Below, in pieces: positions 2,561 to 29,253 of a stretch of 64,000 nt of DNA; the stretch's first letter is position 1, and each line of letters opens with the position of its first letter. This DNA comes from Aminithiophilus ramosus (GTDB taxonomy: Bacteria; Synergistota; Synergistia; Synergistales; Aminithiophilaceae). Position numbers and translations under genes: made by a program. The stretch covers positions 2,797,668 to 2,861,667 of the forward strand of contig NZ_CP072943.1 of NCBI RefSeq assembly GCF_018069705.1. Reading direction: 5' to 3'. A model generated the notes under the pieces. The model did no database searches. It saw only the letters and a list, made by a program, of their open reading frames with translations, and was not told where the DNA came from.

Positions 2561-2583
2561 TCCTTGGGAAAGGAGGAATTACC

Positions 2584-3060
2584 ATGTCCGACGTCCACAA
2601 CGGCAACCGCTCAGGAAACGGAAGAGGAACCGTTCCGTCCCGCAACCGAACCCCGTCCGCCAACGACACCATGGAAGACCACATCCAGTTCATCAGGAGG
2701 CTCGAAAAGCTGGAGCAGCTCGGCGCCGATCGAATCATCCTCATCGGAGAGACCTTCGGTCAGGCGGCCGGTCACGTACTGCCCACCCGAAAGCTCCGCA
2801 AGATTCACGGCCAGATCGTCCTCCACGTCACCCGCAGCCGCTCGGGAAGGACGAAACCTTCCGAGATCCGGCTCATCAAATACCACCTGGCCTACGCCGA
2901 AGGCCGTGGGTCGAACCGGGAACGGCCGTTACTCAAACCGCTGAGCTCGCTCCTCGGCGCCGCCGCGGACAAGGTGACCGACATGGGCGACCTCGACCGT
3001 CTCCGTCAGCTTTCGGAATCGCTCATCGCCTTCCATCGCTATTACGGCGGCGGAGAATAG
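2584..3060 (+). CDS. csm2: CRISPR Csm complex small subunit Csm2
   Basis: 158-aa protein beginning with a low-complexity Asn/Ser/Arg-rich tail of about 28 residues. A helical body follows, with ILIGETFGQAAGHVL-type and SSLLGAAADKVTDM segments typical of the Csm2 family. Csm2 subunits line the inside of the Csm filament along the target RNA. The ATG is preceded by AAAGGAGG. The gene sits between cas10 and csm3, the normal type III-A order. The sequence is short and weakly conserved, so the call leans partly on context. Confidence 0.85.
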   Translation: MSDVHNGNRSGNGRGTVPSRNRTPSANDTMEDHIQFIRRLEKLEQLGADRIILIGETFGQAAGHVLPTRKLRKIHGQIVLHVTRSRSGRTKPSEIRLIKYHLAYAEGRGSNRERPLLKPLSSLLGAAADKVTDMGDLDRLRQLSESLIAFHRYYGGGE

Positions 3061-3086
3061 TCCCGAAGGGGGAAAGGAGAAAAGCC

Positions 3087-7371: not shown

Positions 7372-7542
7372 CGACAATATCGGACCAAAACGCTCCAATC
7401 ACTCAATGCTTGACAGAATCGGCTTCTGGGCCTAGCCTTTCAGTGTGGTCAGATCGAAGTCCGCCAGAGAGCGGAAATTTCATAAAATACGGCTTTCGTT
7501 CACTTGCCCGGAACCCTCTTTCTCAGCGGCTTCCCAGGAACT
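7372..7542 (+). promoter_or_regulatory. CRISPR leader region
   Basis: 171-bp non-coding stretch between cas6 and the first perfect repeat, more AT-rich than its surroundings. A TTGACA at 7410-7415 could be the -35 box of an array promoter, but the -10 partner (TAGCCT, 7433-7438) is poor. A second AT-rich candidate, TAAAAT, lies at 7483-7488. Assigned as leader because all degenerate repeats lie at the opposite end and because the repeat ends in ATTGAAAC on this strand. Confidence 0.65.
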
Positions 7543-10500
7543 ATTCAAATCGCACCGTTGCGGGATTGAAACGGCACGGGACATGTGGTCGTCATAAAAC
7601 ATGTTAATTCAAATCGCACCGTTGCGGGATTGAAACACTGCTTCAACTGCCTCTGTCGTCTCAACTGCATTCAAATCGCACCGTTGCGGGATTGAAACCT
7701 CCAAGCTGTTTTGCAGTGTCGGCACGGGACATTCAAATCGCACCGTTGCGGGATTGAAACCCACCAACAACAAACACACGATTATCCCGTTTCAATTCAA
7801 ATCGCACCGTTGCGGGATTGAAACGTCCTCGTCCGTTCCCATTTCAGCAGAAATGTCATTCAAATCGCACCGTTGCGGGATTGAAACGTTATTTGCTCCC
7901 CTGTCACGGAATCGGTCACATTCAAATCGCACCGTTGCGGGATTGAAACGCTCTACGTCAACCACTGTCGCTACTTCCGCATTCAAATCGCACCGTTGCG
8001 GGATTGAAACCGAGTACTTCCGCAAGTCTCGACAAATCGTCCATTCAAATCGCACCGTTGCGGGATTGAAACTCAAGGGCCTGGGACAGGGAGAAACTGG
8101 CGTCATTCAAATCGCACCGTTGCGGGATTGAAACGAGGACCTTCGCAAGGGCCAGCCGCTCCAGGCATTCAAATCGCACCGTTGCGGGATTGAAACCTGC
8201 TGGATCAGCTCGCGCAGCACCTCGGACTGATTCAAATCGCACCGTTGCGGGATTGAAACTTCCTGGGCACCTCAACTCCGGCAACCATCACAATTCAAAT
8301 CGCACCGTTGCGGGATTGAAACATTTTTCTTCCTCCTCTATTTTTTGTCTCCCCCCCATTCAAATCGCACCGTTGCGGGATTGAAACCTCTTCTCCTTCT
8401 GAAAATTTCCATTCGGTCCAAATTCAAATCGCACCGTTGCGGGATTGAAACGTTAAATTAATTATCATTCTACGCAACTCCCCTTATTCAAATCGCACCG
8501 TTGCGGGATTGAAACGCTTCAGAGATGGCCTTCTCGGCCATCTCGAATTCAAATCGCACCGTTGCGGGATTGAAACGCTGGCCTTGCCGTCCATCAGCCT
8601 GTCGGCAGCATTCAAATCGCACCGTTGCGGGATTGAAACACAAACCAGGTCGTAGGCGTAGAGCCGGGCGAATTCAAATCGCACCGTTGCGGGATTGAAA
8701 CTCTCCCTGGTACTGCGAGGGAACCATCGAGCTATTCAAATCGCACCGTTGCGGGATTGAAACCAGGCCTCCTCCGGGATTTCCTCCCAGTCCAATTCAA
8801 ATCGCACCGTTGCGGGATTGAAACCTCCCGCAGGACCTCGGATTGCCTGCGCCCGGCAAAATTCAAATCGCACCGTTGCGGGATTGAAACTTGTGCGATG
8901 CGGCCCACGCCGCCGCATGCAGAAGATTCAAATCGCACCGTTGCGGGATTGAAACGCCCCTCATCGAACCAGTCGTAAATGTCTTTTCAATTCAAATCGC
9001 ACCGTTGCGGGATTGAAACGCACCCCCGGGCCCGTAGGCTTTGCTGCACCTGCTGGATTCAAATCGCACCGTTGCGGGATTGAAACGGGAGTTTCTTCAC
9101 GCTACTTCCCCCTTCCGTTTATTCAAATCGCACCGTTGCGGGATTGAAACTTCATTTTTCTTCCTCCTCTTTCTCCGTTGGATTCAAATCGCACCGTTGC
9201 GGGATTGAAACCGCATAAAAATCCGCGTTGGCCGCCTCGAAGCGCATTCAAATCGCACCGTTGCGGGATTGAAACTTAATCGAGCGTCATAGGATGACCT
9301 ACAACGATTCAAATCGCACCGTTGCGGGATTGAAACGAAAATTCCCGCCTCCATCAGGGCCCTCTCAAGATTCAAATCGCACCGTTGCGGGATTGAAACG
9401 TCCCGTAGGTCGACGACGGCCTCCCCGTCGTAATTCAAATCGCACCGTTGCGGGATTGAAACGGGGAGGATGTCACCTTATTTATCATACAGCTAATTCA
9501 AATCGCACCGTTGCGGGATTGAAACGGGTGCACCGAAATCTCCATCTCGTCCCAGGGTATCATTCAAATCGCACCGTTGCGGGATTGAAACTTCAGCAGT
9601 GCTCCCGTAAAGGAGTTCAGAATATATTCAAATCGCACCGTTGCGGGATTGAAACTTCGGCGGCGGCGGCAAGGGCTTTCTCCGGCCAATTCAAATCGCA
9701 CCGTTGCGGGATTGAAACAGCGCCGCGAGAGCCACCTGTTTCCAGGCGGCAAATTCAAATCGCACCGTTGCGGGATTGAAACAGCCAGCTCCAAAAAAAC
9801 CTCCTCCGCCGCGTAATTCAAATCGCACCGTTGCGGGATTGAAACGACAGCCGTCTTCCGGACAGTCCCGTCCGCGGTATTCAAATCGCACCGTTGCGGG
9901 ATTGAAACGGCGACCTCTGCTTCTACCCACCCTTGGTGCCATTCAAATCGCACCGTTGCGGGATTGAAACCGCGCTCTCGGAGCGGAGCGCGCGCTATTT
10001 TCAATTCAAATCGCACCGTTGCGGGATTGAAACCTAGGCTACGTGTATACTTCCAACAGGGTATACACATTCAAATCGCACCGTTGCGGGATTGAAACGG
10101 AATAATTCCCACCTCCGCCAGGGCTGTTTATTCAAATCGCACCGTTGCGGGATTGAAACCGGCGATGGTGTCATCGCCTCGGCGGCACAGGATTCAAATC
10201 GCACCGTTGCGGGATTGAAACCCCGCCTGCTCTCGGTAGTAGACGCGCAGGCCATTCAAATCGCACCGTTGCGGGATTGAAACGGGGATCAGAGGCAGAT
10301 AACGATCTTCCCCTTCCCCATTCAAATCGCACCGTTGCGGGATTGAAACCGATTCGATTTGCACCAACTCCATGTCCGTTATTCAAATCGCACCGTTGCG
10401 GGATTGAAACGCGGTAGACCTCCCTGAGGTCTACCACGCCCGCCAGATTCAAATCGCACCGTTGCGGGATTGAAACGGGACGTTCGACGAACGTCAGGAG

Positions 10501-13500
10501 CTCAGTGAGCTCATTCAAATCGCACCGTTGCGGGATTGAAACTATAGATACTAGCTCGTCAACATTGGTCGTACAGGATTCAAATCGCACCGTTGCGGGA
10601 TTGAAACCGGTAGACCTCAGGGAGGTCTACCACGCCCGCCAGATTCAAATCGCACCGTTGCGGGATTGAAACGCCGCAGGCGGCGTCGAGCTCGCAGGCG
10701 GCGACATTCAAATCGCACCGTTGCGGGATTGAAACTAGACCTCAGGGAGGTCTACCACGCCCGCCAGATTCAAATCGCACCGTTGCGGGATTGAAACAGG
10801 GCCTTCTCAAGGGAACCCATTAACCACAGGGCATTCAAATCGCACCGTTGCGGGATTGAAACCTCCGGAAAGCAGCCAGCATCCAGAGATCGCCGGTGAT
10901 TCAAATCGCACCGTTGCGGGATTGAAACCTGTTTTCCGGACACTTCCATCCGGGAGCGTCTCATTCAAATCGCACCGTTGCGGGATTGAAACAGGGCTCC
11001 CCCGATCATAGCAATCGGAGCTTCGATTCAAATCGCACCGTTGCGGGATTGAAACGATCAGGCTAAGTCAAACCTGATCATAGAGCTGATTCAAATCGCA
11101 CCGTTGCGGGATTGAAACTTTCCTGCTTTTTTTGTTTTCGTTGTCATTTTTTATTCAAATCGCACCGTTGCGGGATTGAAACTTAATATTACAGGCACAT
11201 CGACCTAGGCTATGTGATTCAAATCGCACCGTTGCGGGATTGAAACTCAAAATTCGGAGTCTGCTCAGGCGCCCAAACTAAAATTCAAATCGCACCGTTG
11301 CGGGATTGAAACAGGGCACGCGACGTTTCAATTTCGAATAAGCGCCGATTCAAATCGCACCGTTGCGGGATTGAAACGGAAACTCTCATCTTTTTTACCC
11401 TTCCTTCCTCATTCAAATCGCACCGTTGCGGGATTGAAACGAGCCCGGTTTTTCAGGATCGCAGCGCCGTTGATTCAAATCGCACCGTTGCGGGATTGAA
11501 ACCCCGTGGCGGGGTGTTGCGTGAGGTTCAAAATATTCAAATCGCACCGTTGCGGGATTGAAACCGGTAGACCTCAGGGAGGTCTACCACTCCCGCCAAT
11601 TCAAATCGCACCGTTGCGGGATTGAAACGGAGCCGCCTCCCTTAATTGTCAAGGTTCTTCATTCAAATCGCACCGTTGCGGGATTGAAACTTTTCCCACG
11701 CCGGCAAATGCCTGTAATATTAATTCAAATCGCACCGTTGCGGGATTGAAACCCGGCAAATGCCTGTAATATTAACATTACAGGCACAATTCAAATCGCA
11801 CCGTTGCGGGATTGAAACACCGCCTCCACTAAGGCCTTCTCAAGGGAGCAATTCAAATCGCACCGTTGCGGGATTGAAACGACAGCGAGCTCGGCGATCT
11901 GCCGAGCTCGTTGGAATTCAAATCGCACCGTTGCGGGATTGAAACTGACTCCACCCACCCTTGGTGCCGGAAAACAGATTCAAATCGCACCGTTGCGGGA
12001 TTGAAACTCTGCCGAGCTCGTTGGAGGACGGCCCCGTAGCGATTCAAATCGCACCGTTGCGGGATTGAAACTTATTTCCGTTTCTATTTTTCCCACGCCG
12101 GCATTCAAATCGCACCGTTGCGGGATTGAAACTTTGAGGTTAATCTACAAATATGGTATAATAGATTCAAATCGCACCGTTGCGGGATTGAAACTTGGAA
12201 ATTTAACTGTAGCTAGACATTATTTAATTCAAATCGCACCGTTGCGGGATTGAAACCTTCGCCAGAGCCAGTCGCTCCAGGCTGGCCCCATTCAAATCGC
12301 ACCGTTGCGGGATTGAAACCCAGAGGTCGCCGCCTGCGACCTCTGATTCGACCCAATTCAAATCGCACCGTTGCGGGATTGAAACTAATATTAGCATTAC
12401 AGGCACATCAACCTAGGCTATTCAAATCGCACCGTTGCGGGATTGAAACACCGAGCTCGCAGGCGGTGATGACCGCGAGCTCGGCATTCAAATCGCACCG
12501 TTGCGGGATTGAAACCTCTGAGTTCCCGCAATATCAAATGTTACAAACATTCAAATCGCACCGTTGCGGGATTGAAACCCCGTGTTATTAATGCGTCTTC
12601 TAGAGGGGCCATATTCAAATCGCACCGTTGCGGGATTGAAACTATTTCCCTCCTGCGTTCTCGGAGCGGAGCGAGATTCAAATCGCACCGTTGCGGGATT
12701 GAAACTGAGTTCCCGCAATATCAAATGTTACAAACTTAATATTCAAATCGCACCGTTGCGGGATTGAAACATTCCCGTCTCTACCAAGGCCTTTTCCAGG
12801 GGCCATTCAAATCGCACCGTTGCGGGATTGAAACCCGGCGACCTCTGACTCAACCCAACCCCGGTGCCATTCAAATCGCACCGTTGCGGGATTGAAACCT
12901 TTTCGAGGGAGCCCATTAACCACAGGCCCCCCCCGATTCAAATCGCACCGTTGCGGGATTGAAACGCCCCCCCCGATCATGGCAACCGGGGCCTCGACGA
13001 TTCAAATCGCACCGTTGCGGGATTGAAACCCGGCGACCTCTGATTCGACCCAACCCTGGTGCCATTCAAATCGCACCGTTGCGGGATTGAAACTGACCGC
13101 GAGCTCGGCGATCTGCCGAGCTCGCTGATTCAAATCGCACCGTTGCGGGATTGAAACAAGGCAAAGACGGGAACAATTCCCGTCTCCACCAGATTCAAAT
13201 CGCACCGTTGCGGGATTGAAACTTCCTCAGGGGGCCTTTTTTTGCAGCGGCCCCAATTCAAATCGCACCGTTGCGGGATTGAAACTACCATCAATATAGA
13301 TACTAATTCGTCGACGTTATTCAAATCGCACCGTTGCGGGATTGAAACATAAACAAGATTATTTTCTCTAGCTCTCAAAATTCAAATCGCACCGTTGCGG
13401 GATTGAAACTCGTCCAGTTTGGCTCGGAGCACATTCCCATTGACAATTCAAATCGCACCGTTGCGGGATTGAAACGCGCCAATGTCTCCAGAGTGCCCTG

Positions 13501-16500
13501 ACACACCGATTCAAATCGCACCGTTGCGGGATTGAAACTAATGGCGGTACCTAGTAGAAACCATTTCATTTTATTCAAATCGCACCGTTGCGGGATTGAA
13601 ACTCCTGTGTACTCGTTGATACGCTCCCTCTCGTATTCAAATCGCACCGTTGCGGGATTGAAACGCCCCTCCTGAGACATTTCTGCTCGTATCCTGATTC
13701 AAATCGCACCGTTGCGGGATTGAAACGGGCCAGCCGCTCCGGGCTGGCCTTGCCGTCATTCAAATCGCACCGTTGCGGGATTGAAACCGACAGGCGTTTT
13801 CATTTATTTAATTGAATAAAATTCAAATCGCACCGTTGCGGGATTGAAACGCTTCCGCGGCCCCGGTCTCGTCAGGCGCCGCAATTCAAATCGCACCGTT
13901 GCGGGATTGAAACCCAACCACATCAGCCGTCCGCGCAGCCGCTTCCATTCAAATCGCACCGTTGCGGGATTGAAACTGAAAATCGACTCGCTCGGCCTGA
14001 AACAACTATTCAAATCGCACCGTTGCGGGATTGAAACCTACCATCCCTCTATATTTCCGGCAGCGCGGAATTCAAATCGCACCGTTGCGGGATTGAAACT
14101 GGAGGCGCTGATGGCCTCCTCTAGGCTGCTGCATTCAAATCGCACCGTTGCGGGATTGAAACTCCAACACCTCACACACATCCTTGGCCGCGACCCACAT
14201 TCAAATCGCACCGTTGCGGGATTGAAACCCCCGACGGCGAGGCAGGAGACGGTATTCGGTTATTCAAATCGCACCGTTGCGGGATTGAAACCCATCCCCT
14301 CGGCCCCGATCTTCTCCACAAATGCATTCAAATCGCACCGTTGCGGGATTGAAACCGATGGCGAGCTCCGCAATTTCGCGAGCCCGCCGGATTCAAATCG
14401 CACCGTTGCGGGATTGAAACTCAACCACATGGCCCCTCCGATCATGGCGATGAATTCAAATCGCACCGTTGCGGGATTGAAACAAAACTCAGCTTCTTTT
14501 TCTGTTTTAGCTATTTATTCAAATCGCACCGTTGCGGGATTGAAACCTTAAGGCCATATGTATACCCTGTTGGGAGTATATTCAAATCGCACCGTTGCGG
14601 GATTGAAACTACGAGTGTCGGCGATGTCAGAGCGCAACGACGCATTCAAATCGCACCGTTGCGGGATTGAAACTGAATGAAAGAAAAAGAAATAATAAAA
14701 AAAGAAAATTCAAATCGCACCGTTGCGGGATTGAAACATCTACAGGCAATTGCAGTAAGTGGGCTACATCAATTCAAATCGCACCGTTGCGGGATTGAAA
14801 CCGCTCCGGAGAGGAGCGTCTCCGAGTGCCCTGTCAGCATTCAAATCGCACCGTTGCGGGATTGAAACTCTCTTAATTTGTGGGTCTGAGACGGGTGCGG
14901 ATTCAAATCGCACCGTTGCGGGATTGAAACTCCCGCTTTTGAGGTCTCAATTAGAGAGACTTCAAAATTCAAATCGCACCGTTGCGGGATTGAAACCCGG
15001 AGAGGAGCGTCTCCGAGTGCCCTGTCAGATTCAAATCGCACCGTTGCGGGATTGAAACCGCAAATACGAGCGGGATCGGCCACCCCATATATTCAAATCG
15101 CACCGTTGCGGGATTGAAACATTTCGACCAAGGAATAGACGCGGTCTTCCCGCCATTCAAATCGCACCGTTGCGGGATTGAAACTTTCGACCTTTTTAAT
15201 TCATTTATTCCGGAAAGATTCAAATCGCACCGTTGCGGGATTGAAACCTCAGGGGGCCTTTTTTTTGCAGCGGCCCGAAATTCAAATCGCACCGTTGCGG
15301 GATTGAAACGACGACAGTCCCTCATATTTACGGACCTCCGTATTCAAATCGCACCGTTGCGGGATTGAAACTTTTTCCCCGGAGCGGAGCGAGCGCTATT
15401 TTCAATTCAAATCGCACCGTTGCGGGATTGAAACGCAATTGGCGCTCCAACTCGACGAGCTCGCCGGCATTCAAATCGCACCGTTGCGGGATTGAAACGG
15501 AAACAAGGGCTTGCTCCAGAGGGGCCATCATTCAAATCGCACCGTTGCGGGATTGAAACCGCCATGCGCGACGGCGATGGCGAGCTCCGCAATTCAAATC
15601 GCACCGTTGCGGGATTGAAACGATGGCCTTCTCGGCCATCTCCCAGGCTATTTTCATTCAAATCGCACCGTTGCGGGATTGAAACCCGCCGGGCGACCTC
15701 CCCCTGATGGGGGAGATCATTCAAATCGCACCGTTGCGGGATTGAAACGTCGACCTCGTTGAGGTCGACGACCCCCGCCGCGATTCAAATCGCACCGTTG
15801 CGGGATTGAAACAGTCTTGCAGCCTCTCCATGGAACCACCACCAAAATTCAAATCGCACCGTTGCGGGATTGAAACCAAGCTGCGACTGCGTCATACCTA
15901 CTCTTTCCCGAATTCAAATCGCACCGTTGCGGGATTGAAACAAGAGTCCAAAATTATCCCTCCCTCCATGCGCAAATTCAAATCGCACCGTTGCGGGATT
16001 GAAACGAATAGCTGGTAAAACAATGAAAAACGGGAGATTCAAATCGCACCGTTGCGGGATTGAAACTACTCCCGCACCACTGTTTCCCAACGGTACCCTT
16101 CATTCAAATCGCACCGTTGCGGGATTGAAACTCTTCATCCAGCCCGCTCACGGCCTGACTCACGATTCAAATCGCACCGTTGCGGGATTGAAACGGGAGA
16201 GGCCGCACGGGCATTTATCCTCGTCGCCGATTCAAATCGCACCGTTGCGGGATTGAAACATCAGCCTGTCGGCAGCCTCCCCGTAGGGGAATTCAAATCG
16301 CACCGTTGCGGGATTGAAACCCTCCGGTACTCCCGCACCACGGTCTCCCAACGGATTCAAATCGCACCGTTGCGGGATTGAAACCCTAAGGCTTGCTCCA
16401 GAGGGGCCATCAACCACATATTCAAATCGCACCGTTGCGGGATTGAAACCGCCGAGTTGCACGAGAACCTCCGGTCGCCCTTATTCAAATCGCACCGTTG

Positions 16501-18509
16501 CGGGATTGAAACTTGATGATGTTGCCTCCAGCTGATTGCGCTCATCTATTCAAATCGCACCGTTGCGGGATTGAAACACACGGGGAGCAAGCCCTTGTTT
16601 CCTAAGGCTTGCATTCAAATCGCACCGTTGCGGGATTGAAACCCATCGCCAAACCGTGTTCTTGGTTGTTCCCAAAATTCAAATCGCACCGTTGCGGGAT
16701 TGAAACAGCCGAGGGTCTATGTTTTTTTCCCATCGAGTGTAATTCAAATCGCACCGTTGCGGGATTGAAACCGGCGGCGAGCAGGCAACAGGCGACCTCA
16801 ACAATATTCAAATCGCACCGTTGCGGGATTGAAACGACCTCAACAATCCGGTCTTCTTTGTTCTCCGATTCAAATCGCACCGTTGCGGGATTGAAACGAG
16901 CGCCACCTGAGCGTTCAGACGTGGATTGCGAATTCAAATCGCACCGTTGCGGGATTGAAACCCCGGGGCGGAAGTTATTACTGACGCGATTACCCCGATT
17001 CAAATCGCACCGTTGCGGGATTGAAACGATTCGATGATCTGGATGTTCGCCGTCGCCATGATTCAAATCGCACCGTTGCGGGATTGAAACTGCTCTCCCC
17101 GCCGGATTGCTGCGCCGCCTCGATTCAAATCGCACCGTTGCGGGATTGAAACCATTGGTTGTCGACAGGTTTCTTCTGGGAGTCATTCAAATCGCACCGT
17201 TGCGGGATTGAAACGAAACCGCCCTCTGACATACGTCGAGAACGAGGGCATTCAAATCGCACCGTTGCGGGATTGAAACGTCCAGGCCTGACGGGAGTGC
17301 ATATTGTAGTGATTCAAATCGCACCGTTGCGGGATTGAAACGACATATCTTGTGTCATGCACCTTGCTGGGCAATTCAAATCGCACCGTTGCGGGATTGA
17401 AACCTCTTGGGGTACACAGGCTTGACGGCGTACTTCACATTCAAATCGCACCGTTGCGGTATTGAAACAATCCGACCCCTTCATTCGGGTGAGGCTGACG
17501 GAAATTCAAATCGCACCGTTGCGGGATTGAAACGATCGGTCATTTCCATGTGCTCGCTCCCCTTTATTCAAATCGCACCGTTGCGGGATTGAAACAACTG
17601 TAGAAAAACCTCGATCGATGCGGATTTTCATTCAAATCGCACCGTTGCGGGATTGAAACCCCGCTTCAAGCGAGAATCGATCCTTCTCTATATTCAAATC
17701 GCACCGTTGCGGGATTGAAACAACCCCGCCTTTGCCTCATTTCCTTGAGATTAATTCAAATCGCACCGTTGCGGGATTGAAACGGCCGCTACCCGCAAAT
17801 ACCTAAGTCTATTCACCATTCAAATCGCACCGTTGCGGGATTGAAACCGACAGAAGGTCGTCGATCGCGTCCCGGGCCTCATTCAAATCGCACCGTTGCG
17901 GGATTGAAACCTCCATGCTCATCACCTCCCATCCAAGACCAATTCAAATCGCACCGTTGCGGGATTGAAACAAGGACGCTCCGTCCCGATCTCCACGGCC
18001 AATGATTCAAATCGCACCGTTGCGGGATTGAAACTTTTCCCAACGCCAGATCGTATTTTCCGAATAATTCAAATCGCACCGTTGCGGGATTGAAACGCTG
18101 GGCTTGGGTTAAGCCTCTTCTCCTTCTGAATTCAAATCGCACCGTTGCGGGATTGAAACTTAAGGCCGCGATTCGGGCGCCGATGTCCATTCATTCAAAT
18201 CGCACCGTTGCGGGATTGAAACGGGATGCGGACGACGCCACCGGGGACGCGGACGAATTCAAATCGCACCGTTGCGGGATTGAAACTTCAACTCTCTCCC
18301 GGAGCGAGAAGGCGTACAATTCAAATCGCACCGTTGCGGGATTGAAACAACAGCGTAAAGCCAAGACTTTCCTCGCTTTCGATTCAAATCGCACCGTTGC
18401 GGGATTGAAACCGTAGCCGAAAACCCGCATTGCGCTGTAGCTGTTATTCAAATCGCACCGTTGCGGGATTGAAACCCTCGCGCAGGCCCTCTCGTAGCCG
18501 GGAGAGGTA

Positions 18510-18958
18510 ATTCAAATCGCACCGTTGCGGGATTGAAACCTGCTCGGCGCGCAGGAGAGTCTCCATGGTCTCCCATTCAAATCGCACCGTTGCGGGATTG
18601 AAGCTCAAGGTGCGATTCGAATCAGGCGAGGGCCTCGGATTCAAATCGCACCGTTGCGGGATTGAAACCGCCGTGACCCGGCGAAATCCTCCGGAGAGGT
18701 CGGATTCAAATCGCACCGTTGCGGGATTGAAACGTCGTCCCCCGCGATTTCGACGGCGGACAGCAATTCAAATCGCACCGTTGCGGGATTAAAACTTGGC
18801 GGCGGCCTTTTCGTCTCGATAGCGCAGCGATTCAAATCGCACCGTTGCGGGATTGAAACCTGCTCGGCGCGCAGGAGAGTCTCCATGGTCTCCCATTCAA
18901 ATCGCACCGTTGCGGGATTGAAACTCAAGGTGCGATTCGAATCAGGCGAGGGCCTCGG
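18510..18958 (+). repeat. duplicated two-spacer block inside the array
   Basis: The spacer pair at 18540-18574 and 18605-18638 recurs identically at 18860-18894 and 18925-18958, 320 bp (five units) later. The repeat between the first pair ends GAAGC; that between the second pair ends GAAAC. This is the footprint of recombination between repeats, with later point mutation. Confidence 0.9.
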
Positions 18959-21026
18959 ATTCAAATCGCACCGTTGCGGGATTGAAACCAGCTCCGCAAC
19001 CGTTTGCTTCATCTCGTCCCGATTCAAATCGCACCGTTGCGGGATTGAAACATCCCCTGCGAGGCGATGTCTGGGCCACGGCATACATTCAAATCGCACC
19101 GTTGCGGGATTGAAACATATATTAATTACAGGCAAGACACATTAAGGCCATTCAAATCGCACCGTTGCGGGATTGAAACCTGTACGACGATGACCCCCTC
19201 TACGTCGCCGCATTCAAATCGCACCGTTGCGGGATTGAAACTGTCTTCTGAAGGCGCGCGATGAGCCCCCAGATGTCATTCAAATCGCACCGTTGCGGGA
19301 TTGAAACAGCACCGACAATCTTGTGTCGTATGCTGCCCTAATTCAAATCGCACCGTTGCGGGATTGAAACTGATCATGAAAATTAGAACAAAGACTAGAG
19401 TAAATTCAAATCGCACCGTTGCGGGATTGAAACTATGTAAAGTTTATGCTCCTGATCATCAATTGCAAATTCAAATCGCACCGTTGCGGGATTGAAACTT
19501 TTTCCGTTTGAGCTATCTCTACAGACCACCCAAATTCAAATCGCACCGTTGCGGGATTGAAACGAAACGGGAAATCCATCTCTTCCCCCGCGGGCGCATT
19601 CAAATCGCACCGTTGCGGGATTGAAACCTTCCGTTTCTGACGAACTATCTCTGCAATCTGCATTCAAATCGCACCGTTGCGGGATTGAAACTCGATCGAT
19701 GCGGATTTTCTTTAGCTCCTGATTCAAATCGCACCGTTGCGAGATTGAAACTATCTCTCTCAGCAGCGTTTGCGTCCGCTCCAATTCAAATCGCACCGTT
19801 GCGGGATTGAAACCCAGGGCCAGACAGGCCCGCAGGGCCAGCTGATTCAAATCGCACCGTTGCGGGATTGAAACCTCTGAAACGCTACGAGAGTTCGCAA
19901 CAGGGAATTCAAATCGCACCGTTGCGGGATTGAAACCTCGGGGTCAGTCTCATAGCGCCTCACCTCCGATTCAAATCGCACCGTTGCGGGATTGAAACCA
20001 CGTTGGCCAGGCTCAAAACCTCGAGCGCGGCCAGGATTCAAATCGCACCGTTGCGGGATTGAAACCCGCCCGTCGTCGTTGTGACGGGCGATCCTCTCGA
20101 ATTCAAATCGCACCGTTGCGGGATTGAAACTGCGATCGTCAAGGTGCTCGTGGGTGGCCCAGTAATTCAAATCGCACCGTTGCGGGATTGAAACGACATA
20201 GATGCTGCCGTTCGGGCCAGCGTACTGCATTCAAATCGCACCGTTGCGGGATTGAAACTTTTCTAAAGGCCCCATTACCCACGGAGCTCCCATTCAAATC
20301 GCACCGTTGCGGGATTGAAACGTTTCGACCGACTCCCGGAGCGAGAAGGCATACAATTCAAATCGCACCGTTGCGGGATTGAAACCCAAAATGGCCCCGC
20401 CTATTCGGCTAGTCCTTATTCAAATCGCACCGTTGCGGGATTGAAACGCGGAAGACTGCGGTCTTCCGCACCGTCCCGTCGATTCAAATCGCACCGTTGC
20501 GGGATTGAAACCGCATGGCGACGGCGAGGGCGAGCTCGGCGATCTGCATTCAAATCGCACCGTTGCGGGATTGAAACGCCGGGTGGCCCCAGCGAATGAA
20601 CATGGGGCACCATTCAAATCGCACCGTTGCGGGATTGAAACGCCGCGACCTGTTCAGCCGTGGCGGGGTGCTGATTCAAATCGCACCGTTGCGGGATTGA
20701 AACGTCACCTCGACGAGCCCAAGCCCTTCGCCCCCCATATTCAAATCGCACCGTTGCGGGATTGAAACTCGTCGCGTACCCGGTTTGGCCTGCGCCTCCC
20801 CAGATTCAAATCGCACCGTTGCGGGATTGAAACCCCCGGATGGGGCTGCCATGCAGTAGCTCCATCCATTCAAATCGCACCGTTGCGGGATTGAAACCGG
20901 AGTCGGTCGTTTCGACCGACTCCCGGACGGAATTCAAATCGCACCGTTGCGGGATTGAAACTGGACGTCAGCGGCAGAAAACACCGTGGCGTGACTATTC
21001 AAATCGCACCGTTGCGGGATTGAAAC

Positions 21027-21124
21027 GCGAGGGGAGATCGGAGAACGTGAGAAGGGCCTGATTCAAATCGCACCGTTGCGGGATTGAAACGCGAGGGGAG
21101 ATCGGAGAACGTGAGAAGGGCCTG
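21027..21124 (+). repeat. tandemly duplicated spacer
   Basis: Two consecutive spacers (21027-21060 and 21091-21124) are identical 34-mers separated by one perfect repeat. A single repeat-spacer unit has been duplicated. Confidence 0.9.
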
Positions 21125-23453
21125 ATTCAAATCGCACCGTTGCGGGATTGAAACGCGCCCGTCGGGGCCAAACCGCGCCCAGATGGCATTCAAATCGCAC
21201 CGTTGCGGGATTGAAACACCGGGGCCGGCCCCTAAATTGTCAAGTTCCCCATTCAAATCGCACCGTTGCGGGATTGAAACCCGCACGGAAGGCGGCCAAC
21301 ATCCAGAGGTCGCATTCAAATCGCACCGTTGCGGGATTGAAACCCGTGTTCGTCGTATTTCTGCCCGGCCATCTCATTCAAATCGCACCGTTGCGGGATT
21401 GAAACCTCTACTAGGGCCTTTTCCAGAGACCCCATTAGATTCAAATCGCACCGTTGCGGGATTGAAACTTCGACCTCAGAGAGGTCGACGACCCCGGCGG
21501 CATTCAAATCGCACCGTTGCGGGATTGAAACGCCAACACGCCTCGTTACGCCCGCCGCGAGGATTCAAATCGCACCGTTGCGGGATTGAAACCCGGCGTA
21601 CACGGGGCGGATGCCCCATGCCATCAAATTCAAATCGCACCGTTGCGGGATTGAAACTCCTGTCGAACGTGAGCAGCTCAGCCAGCTCCTGATTCAAATC
21701 GCACCGTTGCGGGATTGAAACAGTGGCGATACGGACACTATCGTTGGGCATTGTGATTCAAATCGCACCGTTGCGGGATTGAAACGGGCCTGTACGAGGC
21801 CCTTCTCGGTCGGTTCGGATTCAAATCGCACCGTTGCGGGATTGAAACTTCGGTGGCCGGAAGATCGACGACCCCGGCGGATTCAAATCGCACCGTTGCG
21901 GGATTGAACCTCCTGACGTTCGACCTCTCTGAGGTCGACCGATTCAAATCGCACCGTTGCGGGATTGAAACGCGATTTGCCGCGCCCTCTGCCGAACGGC
22001 CCCATTCAAATCGCACCGTTGCGGGATTGAAACTCGGTGATCTCGATTACGATCACCGGGATTCGGTCATTCAAATCGCACCGTTGCGGGATTGAAACTG
22101 GTATTCGGTTACCACCTCCGCAGTCGGGGCGAATTCAAATCGCACCGTTGCGGGATTGAAACAGGCGTCTGGAGTGGGAATTCTCCCACGCCAACATTCA
22201 AATCGCACCGTTGCGGGATTGAAACTGCCGTGCGCGTAGTAAACCCCGTCAACCGGGGATTCAAATCGCACCGTTGCGGGATTGAAACCGCAGCCCTGAG
22301 CAAGGGCTGCGAGAGCGACCATTCAAATCGCACCGTTGCGGGATTGAAACGGTCGTCCCACGCTCCCACCGAGAAAGGGCGGTAATTCAAATCGCACCGT
22401 TGCGGGATTGAAACGCTGAAGTTCCCGGTTGTACAGGTTACCGGTCGCATTCAAATCGCACCGTTGCGGGATTGAAACATTGAGGGCAAGTCACGTTGTA
22501 CCATGCCATCTCAAATTCAAATCGCACCGTTGCGGGATTGAAACGGTCTGTATCAGGAGGTCTATCATCGCTCTACATTCAAATCGCACCGTTGCGGGAT
22601 TGAAACGACGCAATGCCCTTGTTTCCAAGGGCCTTTTCCAATTCAAATCGCACCGTTGCGGGATTGAAACATGGGGCTGCCATGCAGTAGCTCCATCCGG
22701 GGCCATTCAAATCGCACCGTTGCGGGATTGAAACGAGCCTGCTAAGCTCCTGACGGTCGACCTCATTCAAATCGCACCGTTGCGGGATTGAAACCATGGC
22801 CCCCCCGATCATGGCGACGGGCTGCTATTCAAATCGCACCGTTGCGGGATTGAAACCTACTCCCTCCTCCGTATTAGGCCTAAAATCATTCAAATCGCAC
22901 CGTTGCGGGATTGAAACTCCAGAGTCGCGGGGGTCGATCTCGTGATGATTCAAATCGCACCGTTGCGGGATTGAAACCGGCTCCCGCTGCCGCACCTCCC
23001 GTGTCGCCTCATTCAAATCGCACCGTTGCGGGATTGAAACCACCGTCGTAGCTCCAAAACGCCCACTCGCCATTCAAATCGCACCGTTGCGGGATTGAAA
23101 CGCGCCCGGATCGCGGAGAATCACCGCGACGACGGATTCAAATCGCACCGTTGCGGGATTGAAACAACAGAGTGGTAAATCATTTTACTTACCCCTTCCA
23201 TTCAAATCGCACCGTTGCGGGATTGAAACTATTTTTGATCTTCTTTACTGCTTCCCTGAAGTTATTCAAATCGCACCGTTGCGGGATTGAAACTCGACGA
23301 CCCCAGCCACGAGCTGCTCGCTCGTGATTCAAATCGCACCGTTGCGGGATTGAAACGCCGAACCTGTATTTTTTCTCTCCTTCGACGGGATTCAAATCGC
23401 ACCGTTGCGGGATTGAAACGCTCCACTCTTCCCGGGTATTTCCGGTCACGTGG

Positions 23454-23766
23454 ATTCAAATCGCACCGTTGCGGGATTGAAACTCGAGGTCAGTGATAAC
23501 AACGTTAATTCTTCGAGATTCAAATCGCACCGTTGCGGGATTGAAACTCGCCTCCGAAAGCCTCCGCCATCTGTTCCAATTCAAATCGCACCGTTGCGGG
23601 ATTGAAACTTTTTCCGGCGAGCCATCCAAATCTGCAAGCATATTCAAATCGCACCGTTGCGGGATTGAAACTCGAGGTCAGTGATAACAACGTTAATTCT
23701 TCGAGATTCAAATCGCACCGTTGCGGGATTGAAACTCGCCTCCGAAAGCCTCCGCCATCTGTTCCA
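23454..23766 (+). repeat. duplicated spacer block near the old end of the array
   Basis: Spacers 23484-23517 and 23548-23578 recur exactly at 23672-23705 and 23736-23766, 188 bp (three units) away, with one unrelated spacer between the copies. Confidence 0.9.
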
Positions 23767-23892
23767 ATTCAAATCGCACCGTTGCGGGATTGAAACTGGC
23801 GCTGCTTTTCCCTCTCCGCCGCACGCTCATTCAAATCGCACCGTTGCGGGATTGAAACTCCCCCATCGGGGGGAGATCGACGAACGTCAAGA

Positions 23893-23917
23893 ATTCAAAT
23901 CGTACCGTTGCGGGATA
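23893..23917 (+). repeat. truncated, mutated internal CRISPR repeat
   Basis: A repeat copy with CGTACC instead of CGCACC that stops at GCGGGATA and abuts the next perfect repeat at 23918 without a spacer. The tag sequence is missing. This looks like a deletion between adjacent units, and the upstream spacer would lose normal 3' processing. Confidence 0.85.
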
Positions 23918-24556
23918 ATTCAAATCGCACCGTTGCGGGATTGAAACGAAACGGGGAGACGCAGATCAGGGTGCCGATCAGGATTCAAATCGCACCGTTG
24001 CGGGATTGAAACCGTTCATTTTTTCTTCCTCCTCTTTCCCTGTTATTCAAATCGCACCGTTGCGGGATTGAAACAGTGGGCCTCAAGGGCCTTCTTCGCC
24101 ACGTCCTAATTCAAATCGCACCGTTGCGGGATTGAAACCGCCTGCCGACGATGATTCTCTGCCCCTTTCGGGATTCAAATCGCACCGTTGCGGGATTGAA
24201 ACCTGCTCTGCCGCTTCCTCGCTAGCTTCCGCGAGATTCAAATCGCACCGTTGCGGGATTGAAACCTCCTCCGTGTCGCGGGGAGGCGTGGACACATCGT
24301 ATTCAAATCGCACCGTTGCGGGATTGAAACGGGCTCGGTCCGCAGGCGCTTGGCGCGCAGGTTAATTCAAATCGCACCGTTGCGGGATTGAAACGGACAC
24401 ACAACCTTGTACCATGCCATCTCAACCACATTCAAATCGCACCGTTGCGGGATTGAAACCGCCCTATCGTCTTGCCGTCATCAGAAGTACCCATTCAAAT
24501 CGCACCGTTGCGGGATTGAAACTGTGGGACCGGACACCTTTCGGCCTTGCCATGTT

Positions 24557-24577
24557 ATTCAAATCGCACCGTTGCGG
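24557..24577 (+). repeat. terminal CRISPR repeat truncated after 21 bp
   Basis: The last repeat matches the first 21 bases and then runs directly into the GGTCCC unit of the adjacent tandem repeat, sharing its final GG. The junction marks the distal end of the array. Confidence 0.85.
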
Positions 24578-25643: not shown

Positions 25644-25907
25644 ATGCACACGTTCTTTTTCTACGACGTGGGACAGTGTCGCGTCTCGAAGGTTCATCGC
25701 TATCTGTCGCGGCGTCTTTTCTGGATCCAGAGGAGCGTTTTCGAGGGGGAGCTTTCTCCGTTCCAACGGCGTCTGATCGTCGAGGACTTGAGTCGCTTTC
25801 TCGATCCCCGGAAGGATGCCCTGCTCATGATCAGCACGGAAGCGCCTTATGCGTGGAAACGAACCGTCCTGGGCCAGGATCTGGCCCCCCGGTCTCTCGT
25901 CGAATGA
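25644..25907 (+). CDS. cas2: CRISPR adaptation protein Cas2 (conventional copy)
   Basis: 87-aa Cas2. The first strand ends in the conserved Asp (FFFYDVG, D8). The motif WIQRSVFEGELSPFQ (about 27-41) is the standard Cas2 signature, and DALLMIST is the expected fourth strand. Cas2 dimers bridge two Cas1 dimers in the spacer-integration complex. It has a strong AGGAGG site and is the first gene of the rightward adaptation operon. A second, more diverged cas2 begins 13 bp after its stop. Confidence 0.9.
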   Translation: MHTFFFYDVGQCRVSKVHRYLSRRLFWIQRSVFEGELSPFQRRLIVEDLSRFLDPRKDALLMISTEAPYAWKRTVLGQDLAPRSLVE

Positions 25908-25920
25908 GGAGGAGGATACG

Positions 25921-26190
25921 ATGAAAATCGAGAGGTGCAATTTAATCTTGACCTACGATACGGCCGCCGACCGCATTCCTCCCATCTACCGTTATCTCCA
26001 GAAAAATTTCTTCTGGCTACAGAGGAGCATTTTCTGCGGGCAAATAGGCAAGAACGGGACGGACAGGCTCGAACGTCAATTGAGGCCGCTGATAGACCCC
26101 AGTTACGACAGCGTTTATCTGTTTCAACTCAGGTATCCCTTCACCATGGAGGTCGAGACCTGGGGAAAGACGGAGGGCGCCGTTTACTGA
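25921..26190 (+). CDS. second, diverged Cas2 paralogue
   Basis: 89-aa protein with the Cas2 pattern: LILTYDT with the conserved Asp at position 13, then FFWLQRSIFCGQIG where the conventional copy reads WIQRSVFEGEL, then DSVYLFQLRY. The acidic EGE of the usual signature is replaced by CGQ, and the C-terminus differs from the first Cas2. It follows cas2 directly with its own GAGGAGGA site. The two may form a heterodimer bridging the two different Cas1 proteins downstream; that is inference. Confidence 0.8.
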   Translation: MKIERCNLILTYDTAADRIPPIYRYLQKNFFWLQRSIFCGQIGKNGTDRLERQLRPLIDPSYDSVYLFQLRYPFTMEVETWGKTEGAVY

Positions 26191-26249
26191 GCGAAAATCG
26201 CCGCCGTGATTTTTGATGCCTGTTGAAACGACGTGAGGAGGGGTTTGCG

Positions 26250-26729
26250 ATGACGGTATTCGAGGCGACGAAGAGAGACGAAGCCACATCGTCGAGGGAG
26301 ATTCCGCGTTCCTTCGGTTGCGCCGGAAGAACCTTCCCCTGTATTCGGAAGGAAGAACCGTCTATTCCCCCGAAGGAGATGACGCTTCGGGATTTCAAGG
26401 TTTTCTGCATCCGCCGCATCCCCCATCTGATGGCCCAGGAGCTGAGGCGGAGGCACCTTTGGCGCCCTCGCAGCGGCCTCGACAGGTACGTTCACGAGCA
26501 GGTCGGGCGTTTTCTCGACGGCTGGCCCCACGGCCTCTGGGAGGGGCGCTTCCGCAAGCTGCTCGATTCGCCGGAACCGTCCGCGGCACGGGAGGCGATC
26601 GCCCGCGATACCGCCCTCTGGCTGCTGGAACATCTCGATCTGGCCGACCGGGATGACGCCTCGGCCGTTTTCGGTTCCTATCGGCGCTTCACGGAGAGGC
26701 TCCGCGCGAAGCGAGAGGGAGGTCGCTGA
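26250..26729 (+). CDS. small protein resembling the N-terminal part of Cas4
   Basis: 159 aa, start ATG chosen for its GAGGAGG site. After a non-conserved N-terminus of about 43 residues, the segment FKVFCIRRIPHL (C53) followed by LDRYVHEQV (H82) resembles the Cas4 start, where one cluster Cys and an active-site His lie about 30 residues apart. No C-terminal cysteine triplet and no clear D...ExK nuclease motif is present. The gene sits between cas2 and cas1. It may be half of a split Cas4 together with the 27600 gene, or a degenerate Cas4 paralogue. I do not recognise it with certainty. Confidence 0.4.
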   Translation: MTVFEATKRDEATSSREIPRSFGCAGRTFPCIRKEEPSIPPKEMTLRDFKVFCIRRIPHLMAQELRRRHLWRPRSGLDRYVHEQVGRFLDGWPHGLWEGRFRKLLDSPEPSAAREAIARDTALWLLEHLDLADRDDASAVFGSYRRFTERLRAKREGGR

Positions 26730-26731
26730 CG

Positions 26732-27613
26732 ATGGCCCAGATTCTCTGTTTCGAGCGGCCCGTGACGCTTTCCCGCAAGAACGGCACGCTGGGGATCACC
26801 GGTATCGACGGGACGGTGAGGACCCTTCCGCTGCTTCAGATTTCGGAGCTTTTCGCCCTTGCGGGTGCCACCGTCGAACCTTCTCTGGCGAGCCTTCTCG
26901 CCGAGACGCGGACGCCCCTCCATTCCTTCGGGCCCGACGGCTACGAGGGTTCCTGGATGCCCTTCCACGGCCTTCTGGCCGGAAGGACGGCCTTCGCGCA
27001 GTACCGGGCTCTCTGCGACGGGGATCGCCGCAGAGAGCTGGGGCTGCGCCTTCTCAAGGCGGCCATGCTGTTTCGGCTGGCCTGGGTGAGGCAGCTTCGC
27101 CCGGGGGAGGAGGAACATTGGGAAGAGCGGTATCTCGCCATCTACCGGGAGGCTCGGGTTTACCCGCAGCGCCCCCTGCGGCTCGCCCTCGAAGCCGTCG
27201 AGGTCGTCGACGCGGCGCGCCGTCAGGCCTGGGGGCTTTCTCTGCGAAGCTGCCGCATCGCCGCCGATCTCTGGCTGGCCCTGACGATCGGCACCTTCCG
27301 CGATCTTTCCCTCGACCCCTGGTGTTCGCTGGTGACGGAGAAGCGGTCTTTTCCCCTGGCGAGGGATCTAGCCTTTCTGCTCGAGCCTTCGTTCGTGGAA
27401 GCCTTCGGCGACGGGCTGCCCGGCAGGTCCGATTTATGGGCTCCCCTCCTGGAAGACCATCTTCGCCGCCCCTTCGCCCGAGACGGCGGACGGGTATGGA
27501 GCCTGAGGAGTCTGGCCCTGCGGGAAGGGTATCTCCTTCTGGGAGCCATCCAGTCCGGCGGGATCTACCGTCCCGCCAAGAATGTGGAGGTGACGATCCG
27601 TGAGTCTGCTTGA
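26732..27613 (+). CDS. diverged Cas1 with full N-terminal domain, probably inactive
   Basis: 293 aa. The N-terminal half follows the Cas1 beta-domain plan (LLQISELFALAGATVEPSL; LAETRTPLHSFGPDG; then a Gln-Tyr and an RLLKAAMLFRL helix). In the catalytic half, LEAVEVVDAARRQAW aligns with the metal-binding Glu region (E154/E157) and ARDLAFLLEP with the Asp strand (D212). The stretch expected to hold the catalytic His reads LDPWCSLVTEK, with Val near 201 where His should be, and the Asn-rich loop before it is missing. It is probably a structural paralogue that pairs with the active Cas1 at 28085. It starts two bases after the upstream gene and overlaps the next by 14 bp. Confidence 0.75.
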   Translation: MAQILCFERPVTLSRKNGTLGITGIDGTVRTLPLLQISELFALAGATVEPSLASLLAETRTPLHSFGPDGYEGSWMPFHGLLAGRTAFAQYRALCDGDRRRELGLRLLKAAMLFRLAWVRQLRPGEEEHWEERYLAIYREARVYPQRPLRLALEAVEVVDAARRQAWGLSLRSCRIAADLWLALTIGTFRDLSLDPWCSLVTEKRSFPLARDLAFLLEPSFVEAFGDGLPGRSDLWAPLLEDHLRRPFARDGGRVWSLRSLALREGYLLLGAIQSGGIYRPAKNVEVTIRESA

Positions 27614-28046
27614 CGCCCTCGACGAGGGGTGGAATCTGTTCTGCCGACGGGCCGCCGATTTCTGGGAGTGCGGCGATCATCTGACGCCCAATCTCTCTCT
27701 GATGGGGCTGCTCCAGTGGCGCGGCGACGATGAGGAATCTCCCGAGGAGACTCTGGAGCGCCTCTGCGTCGCCTGGGAGAGGGGGGATCTCGTCGTGCGG
27801 GCCCTCGATTTTCCTCCTCTGCCCGTCTGGGTCGGAGCGACGCTCCATCTGATGAGGGCCTTCGATCTGCCCATGGCCCTTCTCCGCCGCGAAGAGGGGG
27901 ACACGCTGCTTCTTCTGCGGACGGCCGAGGGCGACCGGCGGCTGGCCGATCCGGGGCCGGGAGTCAGCCATCCCTGGACGCGACGCTGCGCCTTCTGTCC
28001 CTACGGCGACATCTGTTCCGTCGTCTATCCCCCCTTCATCGATTGA
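27600..28046 (+). CDS. small Cas4-like iron-sulfur protein
   Basis: 148 aa, GTG start within the end of the diverged cas1. The C-terminus has C130, C133 and C139 (CAFCPYGDIC), exactly the CxxCx5C spacing of the Cas4 4Fe-4S cluster. A further Cys near the N-terminus (FCRRAADF, C15) could be the fourth ligand, or C53 of the 26250 product could supply it in trans. No RecB-type Asp/ExK nuclease residues are evident, and it is much shorter than usual Cas4 (about 170-200 aa). A likely role is PAM or end selection for prespacers, perhaps without cutting. Confidence 0.55.
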   Translation: MSLLDALDEGWNLFCRRAADFWECGDHLTPNLSLMGLLQWRGDDEESPEETLERLCVAWERGDLVVRALDFPPLPVWVGATLHLMRAFDLPMALLRREEGDTLLLLRTAEGDRRLADPGPGVSHPWTRRCAFCPYGDICSVVYPPFID

Positions 28047-28084
28047 CGCATCGGAACCGACGACCCGAAAAAGGAGGTTTCCCC

Positions 28085-28966
28085 GTGGATAAGAAAGGGC
28101 TGGAGGTGCTTCACGGCTACCGCGGTCCCCATCTTTCTCTCTTCTGCGGCGCCGACGAGGATCAGAATCCCTTTTTCCTGCTCCGGTCGGCTCAGATGAG
28201 GGTCCTGAACGACGCCGGGCAGAGGCTGGCCGCGGCCCGATGGCTGCTGCGCGGCGTCCTGGCCGTCTACCGCATCTGGCAGTGCTGGACGAAGGCTCCC
28301 GTCGAGGCGATCCTGAAACGGACGGCCCCGGCCATCGAGGAGGCCCCGGATATCGAGTCCCTCCGCGGCGTCGAAGGGGCCTTCCATCGCGACCTGTTCG
28401 ACCTCTGGCAGGAGGCCTTCGGGGCCCCCTGGCATTTCGAGGAGCGCAACCGCCGCCCGCCCCGCGACCCGATCAACGCCTTTCTTTCCTACGGCAACAG
28501 CATCGTCTACTCCCTCTGCGTTCCTCCCATCCAGAGGAAGTATCTCCATTCGGCCCTGTCGATCCTCCACGAGCCGGGAGCCCGAAGGCACAGTCTGGCT
28601 CTCGATATGGCCGAGCTGTACAAACCGCTGCTCGTGGAGGCCCCCCTCTGGACGCTGTTGAAGCGCAAAGGCCTGTTGCCGGACATGACCGTCACCGATA
28701 TCGACGGATGCCGCCTTTCCGCCGAGAGCCGCCAGATCTTCCGCCGGGCCATGAGAGACGTCCTCTTCCCCCTCTACGTCGAGGAATCCCGCGACCGCTG
28801 GGGATGGCCCCTTTTTTTCTGGGAGAACCTGGAGACGACGGCGGCCGAACTCGGCCGTCGCTGCCTCCGGGGCGATTTCAGCGGCCACTGGTTTCCCTCG
28901 GGGCTTGTCTGGCCGCGGTCGAAACTTCTCGAAGACTGTATGCCCTATCTCTGCAGGACGCTTTAG
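28085..28966 (+). CDS. cas1: Cas1 integrase with complete active site but shortened N-terminus
   Basis: 293 aa, GTG start with a strong AAGGAGG site. All Cas1 active-site elements are present: RGVEG (E97), DPINAFLSYGNSIVY (N131), LSILHEP (H162) and LALDMAELYKPLLVE (D174). The protein opens at the strand that is normally around residue 60 of Cas1 (GLEVLHGYRG), so the first half of the N-terminal dimerisation domain is absent. This is not a start-choice artefact: the frame upstream extends only about 14 codons. The missing part is present in the otherwise inactive Cas1 at 26732, which suggests a heteromeric integrase. It is part of the rightward adaptation operon. Confidence 0.9.
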   Translation: MDKKGLEVLHGYRGPHLSLFCGADEDQNPFFLLRSAQMRVLNDAGQRLAAARWLLRGVLAVYRIWQCWTKAPVEAILKRTAPAIEEAPDIESLRGVEGAFHRDLFDLWQEAFGAPWHFEERNRRPPRDPINAFLSYGNSIVYSLCVPPIQRKYLHSALSILHEPGARRHSLALDMAELYKPLLVEAPLWTLLKRKGLLPDMTVTDIDGCRLSAESRQIFRRAMRDVLFPLYVEESRDRWGWPLFFWENLETTAAELGRRCLRGDFSGHWFPSGLVWPRSKLLEDCMPYLCRTL

Positions 28967-28983
28967 CGGGAGGCGAGAGAACG

Positions 28984-29253
28984 ATGGGAAAATCCGTCTG
29001 GCAGGTGGCGCTCATCGACGGGAGGCGTCAGAACCTTCTCGAAGAGCTTTGCGGCATCGCCGTCGCCCTCGGCAGCAATCCCCTCACCGAAACGCTTCTG
29101 GACGGTCTGGCCTACAGCGCCGACGACGGCAGCGACGATTTCGACGAGAATCTCGAGTTCGTCGAGGCGATGCTCCGGCGTCTCATCCGAATCGGCGAGT
29201 CTCTCGGAAGAGGGACGGACGAAGAGATCGACCTCGACGGCGTCCCCTTCTAG
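28984..29253 (+). CDS. small acidic protein at the end of the adaptation operon
   Basis: 89 aa, ATG start 17 bp after cas1 with a GGGAGGCGAG site. Rich in Asp and Glu, with a central SADDGSDDFDENLEF acidic patch and a leucine-rich helical N-terminus (RRQNLLEELCGIAVAL). No family recognised. Position at the end of the cas2-cas1 operon suggests an accessory adaptation factor, perhaps a DNA-mimic-like or chaperone protein; this is a guess from charge and context. Confidence 0.6.
   Translation: MGKSVWQVALIDGRRQNLLEELCGIAVALGSNPLTETLLDGLAYSADDGSDDFDENLEFVEAMLRRLIRIGESLGRGTDEEIDLDGVPF

Follow-up and report, generated by a model that had tools for sequence, protein, structure and literature searches.

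The analysis reported here concerns an operon of seven open reading frames (ORFs), A to G, which follows a type III-A CRISPR (clustered regularly interspaced short palindromic repeats) array in the genome of Aminithiophilus ramosus. It lies within a 64,000-nucleotide (nt) stretch of contig NZ_CP072943.1 (positions 2,797,668 to 2,861,667), in the following referred to as the window. The operon encodes two proteins of the Cas1 family (D and F), two of the Cas2 family (A and B) and one Cas4-like protein (E), and we consider it likely that these constitute a heteromeric Cas1-Cas2 spacer integrase with divided labour, which serves the adjacent array. The two Cas1 proteins are predicted to complement each other, since D retains the N-terminal beta domain and has lost catalytic residues, whereas F has a complete active site and lacks most of this domain.

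Composition of the Cas1 and Cas2 pairs and of the Cas4-like protein

The Pfam Cas1 profile matches D at profile positions 5-123 only (4.5e-8) and F at positions 78-281 of 283 only (9.7e-42). Judged by sequence, the two proteins cover complementary parts of Cas1. An earlier note, made from the DNA sequence alone, had described each pair as a conventional and an altered member, and the pairing now appears more precise than this: D is indeed altered at catalytic residues, but the presumed conventional partner F also lacks most of the N-terminal domain. In comparisons with solved structures, the D profile matched 2yzs, an Aquifex protein (2.6e-25, residues 5-230), and 4xtk, which is named Cas1 (5.4e-21). 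The F profile matched 4wj0, also named Cas1 (1.7e-36), with the match beginning at chain residue 74. A predicted model of D, built from 6 sequences, reached a predicted local distance difference test score (pLDDT) of 76 and a predicted template modelling score (pTM) of 0.77. VIA-align superposed it on 2yzs_A with a Z of 24.1 and a root-mean-square deviation (rmsd) of 3.0 over 265 aligned residues, and on 4xtk_D with a Z of 24.0 and an rmsd of 2.6 over 256 aligned residues. According to this model, D has the whole Cas1 fold, consisting of the N-terminal beta domain and the helical C-terminal domain.

The active site was analyzed in a joint alignment of 6 D, 6 F and 30 canonical Cas1 sequences out of the fetched loci. 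The canonical set consisted of frames of 300-420 amino acids (aa) from part of these loci that matched both the D and the F profile, after removal of copies identical over the last 150 residues. All four residues that we take to be catalytic are present in F (6/6) and in the canonical proteins (30/30). In D, the segment with the catalytic glutamate is missing in 6/6, the position of the histidine is occupied by T, T, P, C, C and S in the six members, so that the histidine is found in none, and the second acid is replaced by phenylalanine in 6/6; one aspartate is retained in all six. The gap of D around the glutamate depends on the alignment, and the loss of the histidine sits in a well-aligned block. 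Over canonical residues 1-60, F aligns to just 8-14 and D to 50-60. Thus, as predicted from the alignment, D is a Cas1 homologue and not a Cas1 integrase on its own, and F is a truncated Cas1 which keeps the catalytic residues and lacks most of the N-terminal beta domain. Trees were calculated with six members each of A, B, D and F; the near-identical sequences of the sister strain G021 were left out everywhere, those of G177 and G023 from A, B and F, and those of G023 and G179 from D. The D and F families each form one group with a support of 100/100.

A and B score 50.1 and 42.1 bits against the Pfam Cas2 profile and thus both exceed its gathering score of 23.8, whereas only A (28.4) and not B (15.4) exceeds the cut-off of 24.5 of NCBIfam TIGR01573. 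They represent two separate Cas2 groups from six genomes each, with a support of 94/87 for the B clade. Pfam therefore recovers the Cas2 and Cas1 assignments of the earlier note for A and B and for D and F, respectively; in C and E, which the note had described as Cas4-like, and likewise in G, the Pfam scan found no family match.

Nevertheless, E looks by itself like a whole mini-Cas4, though not like a Cas4 nuclease. Four cysteines are invariant in 7/7 E sequences, one at the N-terminus and three in a C-x2-C-x5-C arrangement at the C-terminus. In canonical Cas4 proteins, these four cysteines occur at identical spacing (11/11), together with the invariant residues D66, E79 and K81 (D, E-x-K; 11/11), whereas no aspartate, glutamate, lysine or histidine is invariant in the seven E sequences. 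E is thus predicted to retain the iron-sulfur (Fe-S) cysteine set and to lack the RecB-type nuclease residues. Profile comparison of E with Cas4 by hhalign gave a probability of 76% and an E-value of 2.3e-5 for the C-terminal part only. With the predicted model of E, Foldseek returned weak matches, the best being 4ic1 (E 0.08), which we take to be a Cas4. The ten best VIA rows all belong to the Cas4/Exo5 family, with Exo5 presumably being a relative of Cas4, and are led by 8d3l_I (Z 6.9, 128 residues aligned). The expectation that the diverged copies would show Cas1 and Cas4 folds is therefore borne out by the models, in that D has the Cas1 fold and E resembles Cas4 most.

The idea that C and E are two short Cas4-like genes or the two halves of a split Cas4 had to be abandoned, since E alone has the cysteines of both Cas4 ends. 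As a candidate N-terminal half, C was rejected as well: in two aligned relatives the cysteine is present in 1/2 and the histidine in 0/2, and the hhalign comparison with Cas4, based on only 3 sequences, gave a probability of 0.1%. Neither C nor G had a match in Pfam, PADLOC or NCBIfam scans.

Occurrence in Synergistota and turnover of the array

Matches to the D protein were found in 21 of 185 genomes of the phylum Synergistota. Nine of these carry members of the D family (the genome of the window, G000, as well as G021, G022, G023, G177, G018, G027, G180 and G179); in the other 12, the matches are N-terminal, lie in frames of 332-439 aa and have E-values no better than 2.4e-6. In a profile search that covered the phylum, F reached at least 422 bits in 7 genomes, and no other match exceeded 141 bits; the F of G177 is cut by the contig end. 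No F without D was found among the 185 genomes. Among the related loci and that of the window, E was found in 8 and the two Cas2 genes in 7, the contig of G177 stopping before the Cas2 genes and that of G023 inside D.

D, E, F, A and B occur together in four Synergistota families, in three of them directly 3' of cas6. Full-length D proteins with 31-61% identity are encoded in G022, G177, G018, G027 and G180, and cas6 immediately precedes D in all five distant loci (G018, G027, G180, G179 and G177). The gene order D-E-F-A-B is common to G018, G027, G180 and G179 (with D interrupted in G179); the window has A-B-C-D-E-F-G and G022 C-D-E-F-A-B-G. Among the eight related loci searched, relatives of C were found only in those of the genus of the window and relatives of G only in G021 and G022. 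The ratios of nonsynonymous to synonymous substitutions (dN/dS) between the window and G022, calculated with our own Nei-Gojobori script, are 0.12 for A, below about 0.13 for B (saturated), 0.29 for D, 0.24 for E and 0.26 for F, as well as 0.37 for C and 0.54 for G. The recurrence in other families, the separate groups of A, B, D and F and the low dN/dS values support the proposal that selection maintains both Cas1 genes and both Cas2 genes together with a Cas4-like gene.

Of the 9 genomes carrying D, 7 also have a match to Cas10a; G027 and G180, assemblies of ~490 and ~90 contigs, are without one. Six of 7 related loci contain repeat arrays, whose repeats by eye are similar to those of the window. 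In a search of 389 genomes with the D profile, in which up to six first-look candidates were scored per genome, members were found in Synergistota only. The six intact D members score 433 bits or more, and two other phyla, represented by 103 and 25 genomes, yielded no member and best scores of 79.4 and 66.4 bits. No relatives were detected in viral contigs by a pattern scan or in phages, and on plasmids only the N-terminal part of Cas1 was matched, with 5 of 6 records annotated as Cas1b. A genome-contig scan with one protein, which detects close relatives only, returned one locus, in strain L-13.

Comparison with the sister strain G021 provides information on the activity of the array. The two strains are identical over 7541 bases of csm genes and leader, and the operon shows 1 mismatch in 3610 bases, at 27370 in D, which leaves the protein unchanged. 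The III-A arrays, in contrast, hold 262 (window) and 261 (sister strain) distinct spacers, of which none is shared when all spacers are used. Between the two sets, 31 pairs of spacers have an exact 18-mer in common, which in 28 pairs lies at an offset, as compared to 0 pairs in 50 shuffles. Such offset overlaps are the pattern expected from separate captures off related targets. Taken together, the array difference and the offset overlaps point to active acquisition. For the overlap, shuffle and hairpin analyses, spacers outside 25-44 nt were dropped, which kept 266/267 and 259/261 spacers. Enrichment of hairpins in spacers was considered as a mark of the module and discarded as too weak: z is below -2 in 15% and 18% of the III-A spacers versus 15% of those of the type I-E arrays, with mean values of -0.49 and -0.61 versus -0.21 (Mann-Whitney p 0.08 and 0.02). 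No protospacer in phage records was matched at megablast sensitivity, and therefore no protospacer adjacent motif (PAM) could be derived.

Several further features of the arrays were observed. In the window, positions 23454-23609 and 23642-23797 are an exact duplicate of an array stretch, 188 bases apart, and five spacers are present twice. In the array of G021 (L116/L117), two repeats are separated by an interval of 1758 nt, probably due to an insertion.

Layout of the locus

The genome consists of a single 3.1 Mb contig. The locus reads, from 5' to 3', type III-A effector genes, cas6, putative leader, CRISPR array and adaptation operon (Table 1), and its assignment to type III-A follows from the detection of Csm1/Cas10, Csm3, Csm4 and Csm5 by PADLOC. 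The orientation of leader and array was deduced from the repeat end ATTGAAAC, which by convention we take to be an orientation marker. All seven ORFs of the operon are open on the plus strand across 25644-29253, and direct reading of the sequence reveals a Shine-Dalgarno-like GGAGG or GGGAGG upstream of every start, confirming the earlier note in this respect. D and E overlap by 14 nt.

Table 1. Features of the type III-A locus and of the adaptation operon (positions within the window).
Feature	Position	Strand	Evidence and remarks
cas10/csm1 (type III-A)	188..2560	+	PADLOC Cas10a 4.5e-102; start codon provisional
ORF with csm3 in C-terminal part (from ~residue 230)	2418..3854	+	PADLOC Csm3 8.2e-73, residues 230-455
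csm4	3860..4768	+	PADLOC Csm4 1e-23
ORF containing csm5, true start probably downstream of 4570	4570..5880	+	PADLOC Csm5 1.1e-23, residues 78-397
cas6	6589..7371	+	PADLOC Cas6b 1.8e-43
Putative leader, cas6 to first repeat	7372..7542	+	Same bases in sister strain
CRISPR array, 268 repeats of 30 nt, spacers mainly 31-36 nt	7543..24522	+	
A, Cas2 paralogue ("Cas2a"), 87 aa	25644..25907	+	Pfam CRISPR_Cas2 3.1e-13; own tree group
B, Cas2 paralogue ("Cas2b"), 89 aa	25921..26190	+	Pfam CRISPR_Cas2 1e-10; own tree group
C, accessory protein of no known family, 159 aa	26250..26729	+	
D, predicted catalytically dead Cas1 with N-terminal beta domain, 293 aa	26732..27613	+	
E, putative mini-Cas4 with four invariant cysteines and loss of nuclease motifs, 148 aa	27600..28046	+	
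F, Cas1 with predicted complete active site, most of N-terminal beta domain gone, 293 aa	28085..28966	+	
G, small accessory protein, 89 aa	28984..29253	+	

Between csm5 and cas6, at 5885-6592 on the plus strand, a protein of ~230 aa with a glycine-rich C-terminal motif is encoded. It has relatives at L033:3945-4655, L036:7564-8241 and L031:2377-3066, which are 31-34% identical to the window copy. Two of these proteins were scanned with PADLOC and matched no family there, and one of three scanned with Pfam weakly matches the Cas6 C-terminal domain (E 0.052). Perhaps this protein is a diverged partner of Cas6, as an echo of the paired Cas1 and Cas2. Furthermore, the region from the array end to the adaptation operon contains tandem repeats rich in G and C (24567-25293) whose spacing changes from 103 to 77 nt. 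A second frame with a weak match to Cas10a (37.6 bits) lies ~5 kb before the window, at G000:C1:2792588-2793004; it is also present in G021, G022 and G023.

Proposed integrase, alternatives and known systems

In the proposed integrase, F would perform the integration chemistry, because it has a complete Cas1 active site. The dead Cas1 D would supply the beta-sandwich half lost by F and would occupy the place of the non-catalytic Cas1 protomer of ordinary complexes. The Cas2 pair at the centre would consist of A and B, probably joined as a heterodimer, and two different Cas2 proteins could break the two-fold symmetry. Stripped of its nuclease, E may bind one prespacer end via its Fe-S-type fold and thus act as an end-holder or gate and not as a trimmer. 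Type III interference is not known to need a strict PAM, and a nuclease-dead E holding an uncut end may suit this type. The data show the anatomy of the genes, the residues lost and retained, their conservation and grouping, and the difference between the arrays of the two strains. We infer that D, F, A, B and E form one complex, and with it the stoichiometry of this complex, the role of E and that the operon has written the array. A more detailed arrangement, which we put forward only tentatively, would be D2F2 around an A:B Cas2 heterodimer, so that each Cas1 position and each half of the complex comes from a different gene. The Cas2 heterodimer together with a single dead Cas4 would break the symmetry and fix the leader-joining end of the prespacer without PAM cutting.

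A number of observations argue against a divided-labour integrase. The five models of D differ widely, with mean pLDDT values from 76 to 48, and their input comprised only 6 sequences. D joins the Cas1 tree on a very long branch and this tree carries a long-branch warning, which limits what it can say about where the Cas1 duplication took place; the tree of A and B likewise carries a warning of long branches that meet. The likeness of E to Cas4 is modest by all three comparisons described above, and the Pfam Cas4 profile misses E in G000, where it matches only a frame of 906 aa at another place. In G023, no F was found. D itself is broken in 2 of 9 genomes, by an in-frame internal deletion in G023 and by ~1.4 kb inserted inside the gene in G179 (L036:9610-11063). 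Since E, F, A and B stay open in G179, D may be dispensable, if perhaps only temporarily. Finally, the type I-E arrays of the two strains also share no spacers (102 versus 12), so that turnover is not a special feature of this module, and part of the difference between the III-A arrays could stem from recombination that replaced arrays as a whole.

The broken D genes and the loss of catalytic residues from D and E would also fit the view that both are decaying leftovers of duplications, with F and either A or B forming an ordinary homomeric integrase. Decay or absence of the extra genes in relatives, which according to the earlier note would refute its proposal, is seen for D in the two genomes mentioned and for C and G, which among the loci searched were found only in those of the genus. 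However, full-length D proteins are retained in the five genomes listed above, the dN/dS values of D and E are low, F is not an ordinary Cas1 since most of its N-terminal domain is gone, and none of the 185 genomes of the phylum was found to have it without D. Such decay is therefore quite unlikely. D and E could instead be under selection for a task outside the integrase, such as leader binding, feeding of DNA from Cas6/Csm, or competitive restraint of F. The position of D directly after cas6 in all five distant loci and its retention of the fold without an active site would agree with such a task; however, the domain absent from F is precisely the one retained by D, which suggests direct complementation, and we regard a task outside the integrase as unlikely.

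Alternatively, the operon could be inactive and the array filled in trans by another adaptation machine. The genome does have a further Cas1, in a locus which we take to be of type I-E from its repeat and gene layout. However, the repeat of this locus, which was fetched, is unrelated and the III-A repeat is absent there, and a Pfam Cas1 search of the genome revealed no third Cas1 locus, which makes filling in trans highly improbable. If the divided-labour integrase indeed exists, it would show that asymmetry can evolve in an integrase which is usually symmetric. Since distinct genes would encode the two Cas1 positions, dead and active, as well as both Cas2 positions, each could be mutated alone. 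The job of the inactive protomer, the setting of direction in type III systems and roles of Cas4 besides cutting would thereby become testable, and a directional DNA-recording tool could result.

Among known systems, the type I-B Cas1 (TIGR03641, Cas1b) is the best NCBIfam match of both D and F, although below the cut-off, and D shares its fold. There, one protein does both jobs, whereas in this operon beta domain and active site are divided between two genes. The Cas4 proteins of the Cas4-Cas1-Cas2 complexes of types I-C and I-G (8d3l, 7mi5) are the best structural neighbours of E; they cut DNA, whereas E is without the nuclease residues. To our knowledge, these complexes are built with a single Cas1 and a single Cas2 species, and two-fold symmetry holds for the known Cas1-Cas2 complexes besides that of type I-F.

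According to a passage in PubMed Central (PMC) article PMC10504553, Cas4 guards the PAM end, delays its joining and sets the direction. Ordinary complexes are described in an excerpt of PMC9048733 as four Cas1 around two Cas2. For type I-F, the part of PMC12259127 dealing with the complex states that active subunits join the DNA and inactive ones form channel walls, and that the Cas1-Cas2/3 integrase is two-fold symmetric, yet insertion must be one-directional. The retrieved passages of the open-licence PMC literature contain no description of a dead/active Cas1 pair, nor do those of the 2025 classification (PMC12669027); an apparent "inactivated Cas1" in a passage of PMC3150331 is actually an "inactivated Cas10".

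Two further parallels are drawn from sections of PMC5704561. In the type I-A system of Sulfolobus, Cas4 and Csa1 are likewise two diverged paralogues of one adaptation protein, and both are essential; the paired protein there is Cas4, whereas the present operon has pairs of Cas1 and Cas2 and one Cas4-like protein, which is predicted to be nuclease-dead. In the virus TTV1, too, a Cas4-like nuclease was inactivated and put to a new use, but as part of the virus nucleocapsid and not as an adaptation protein.

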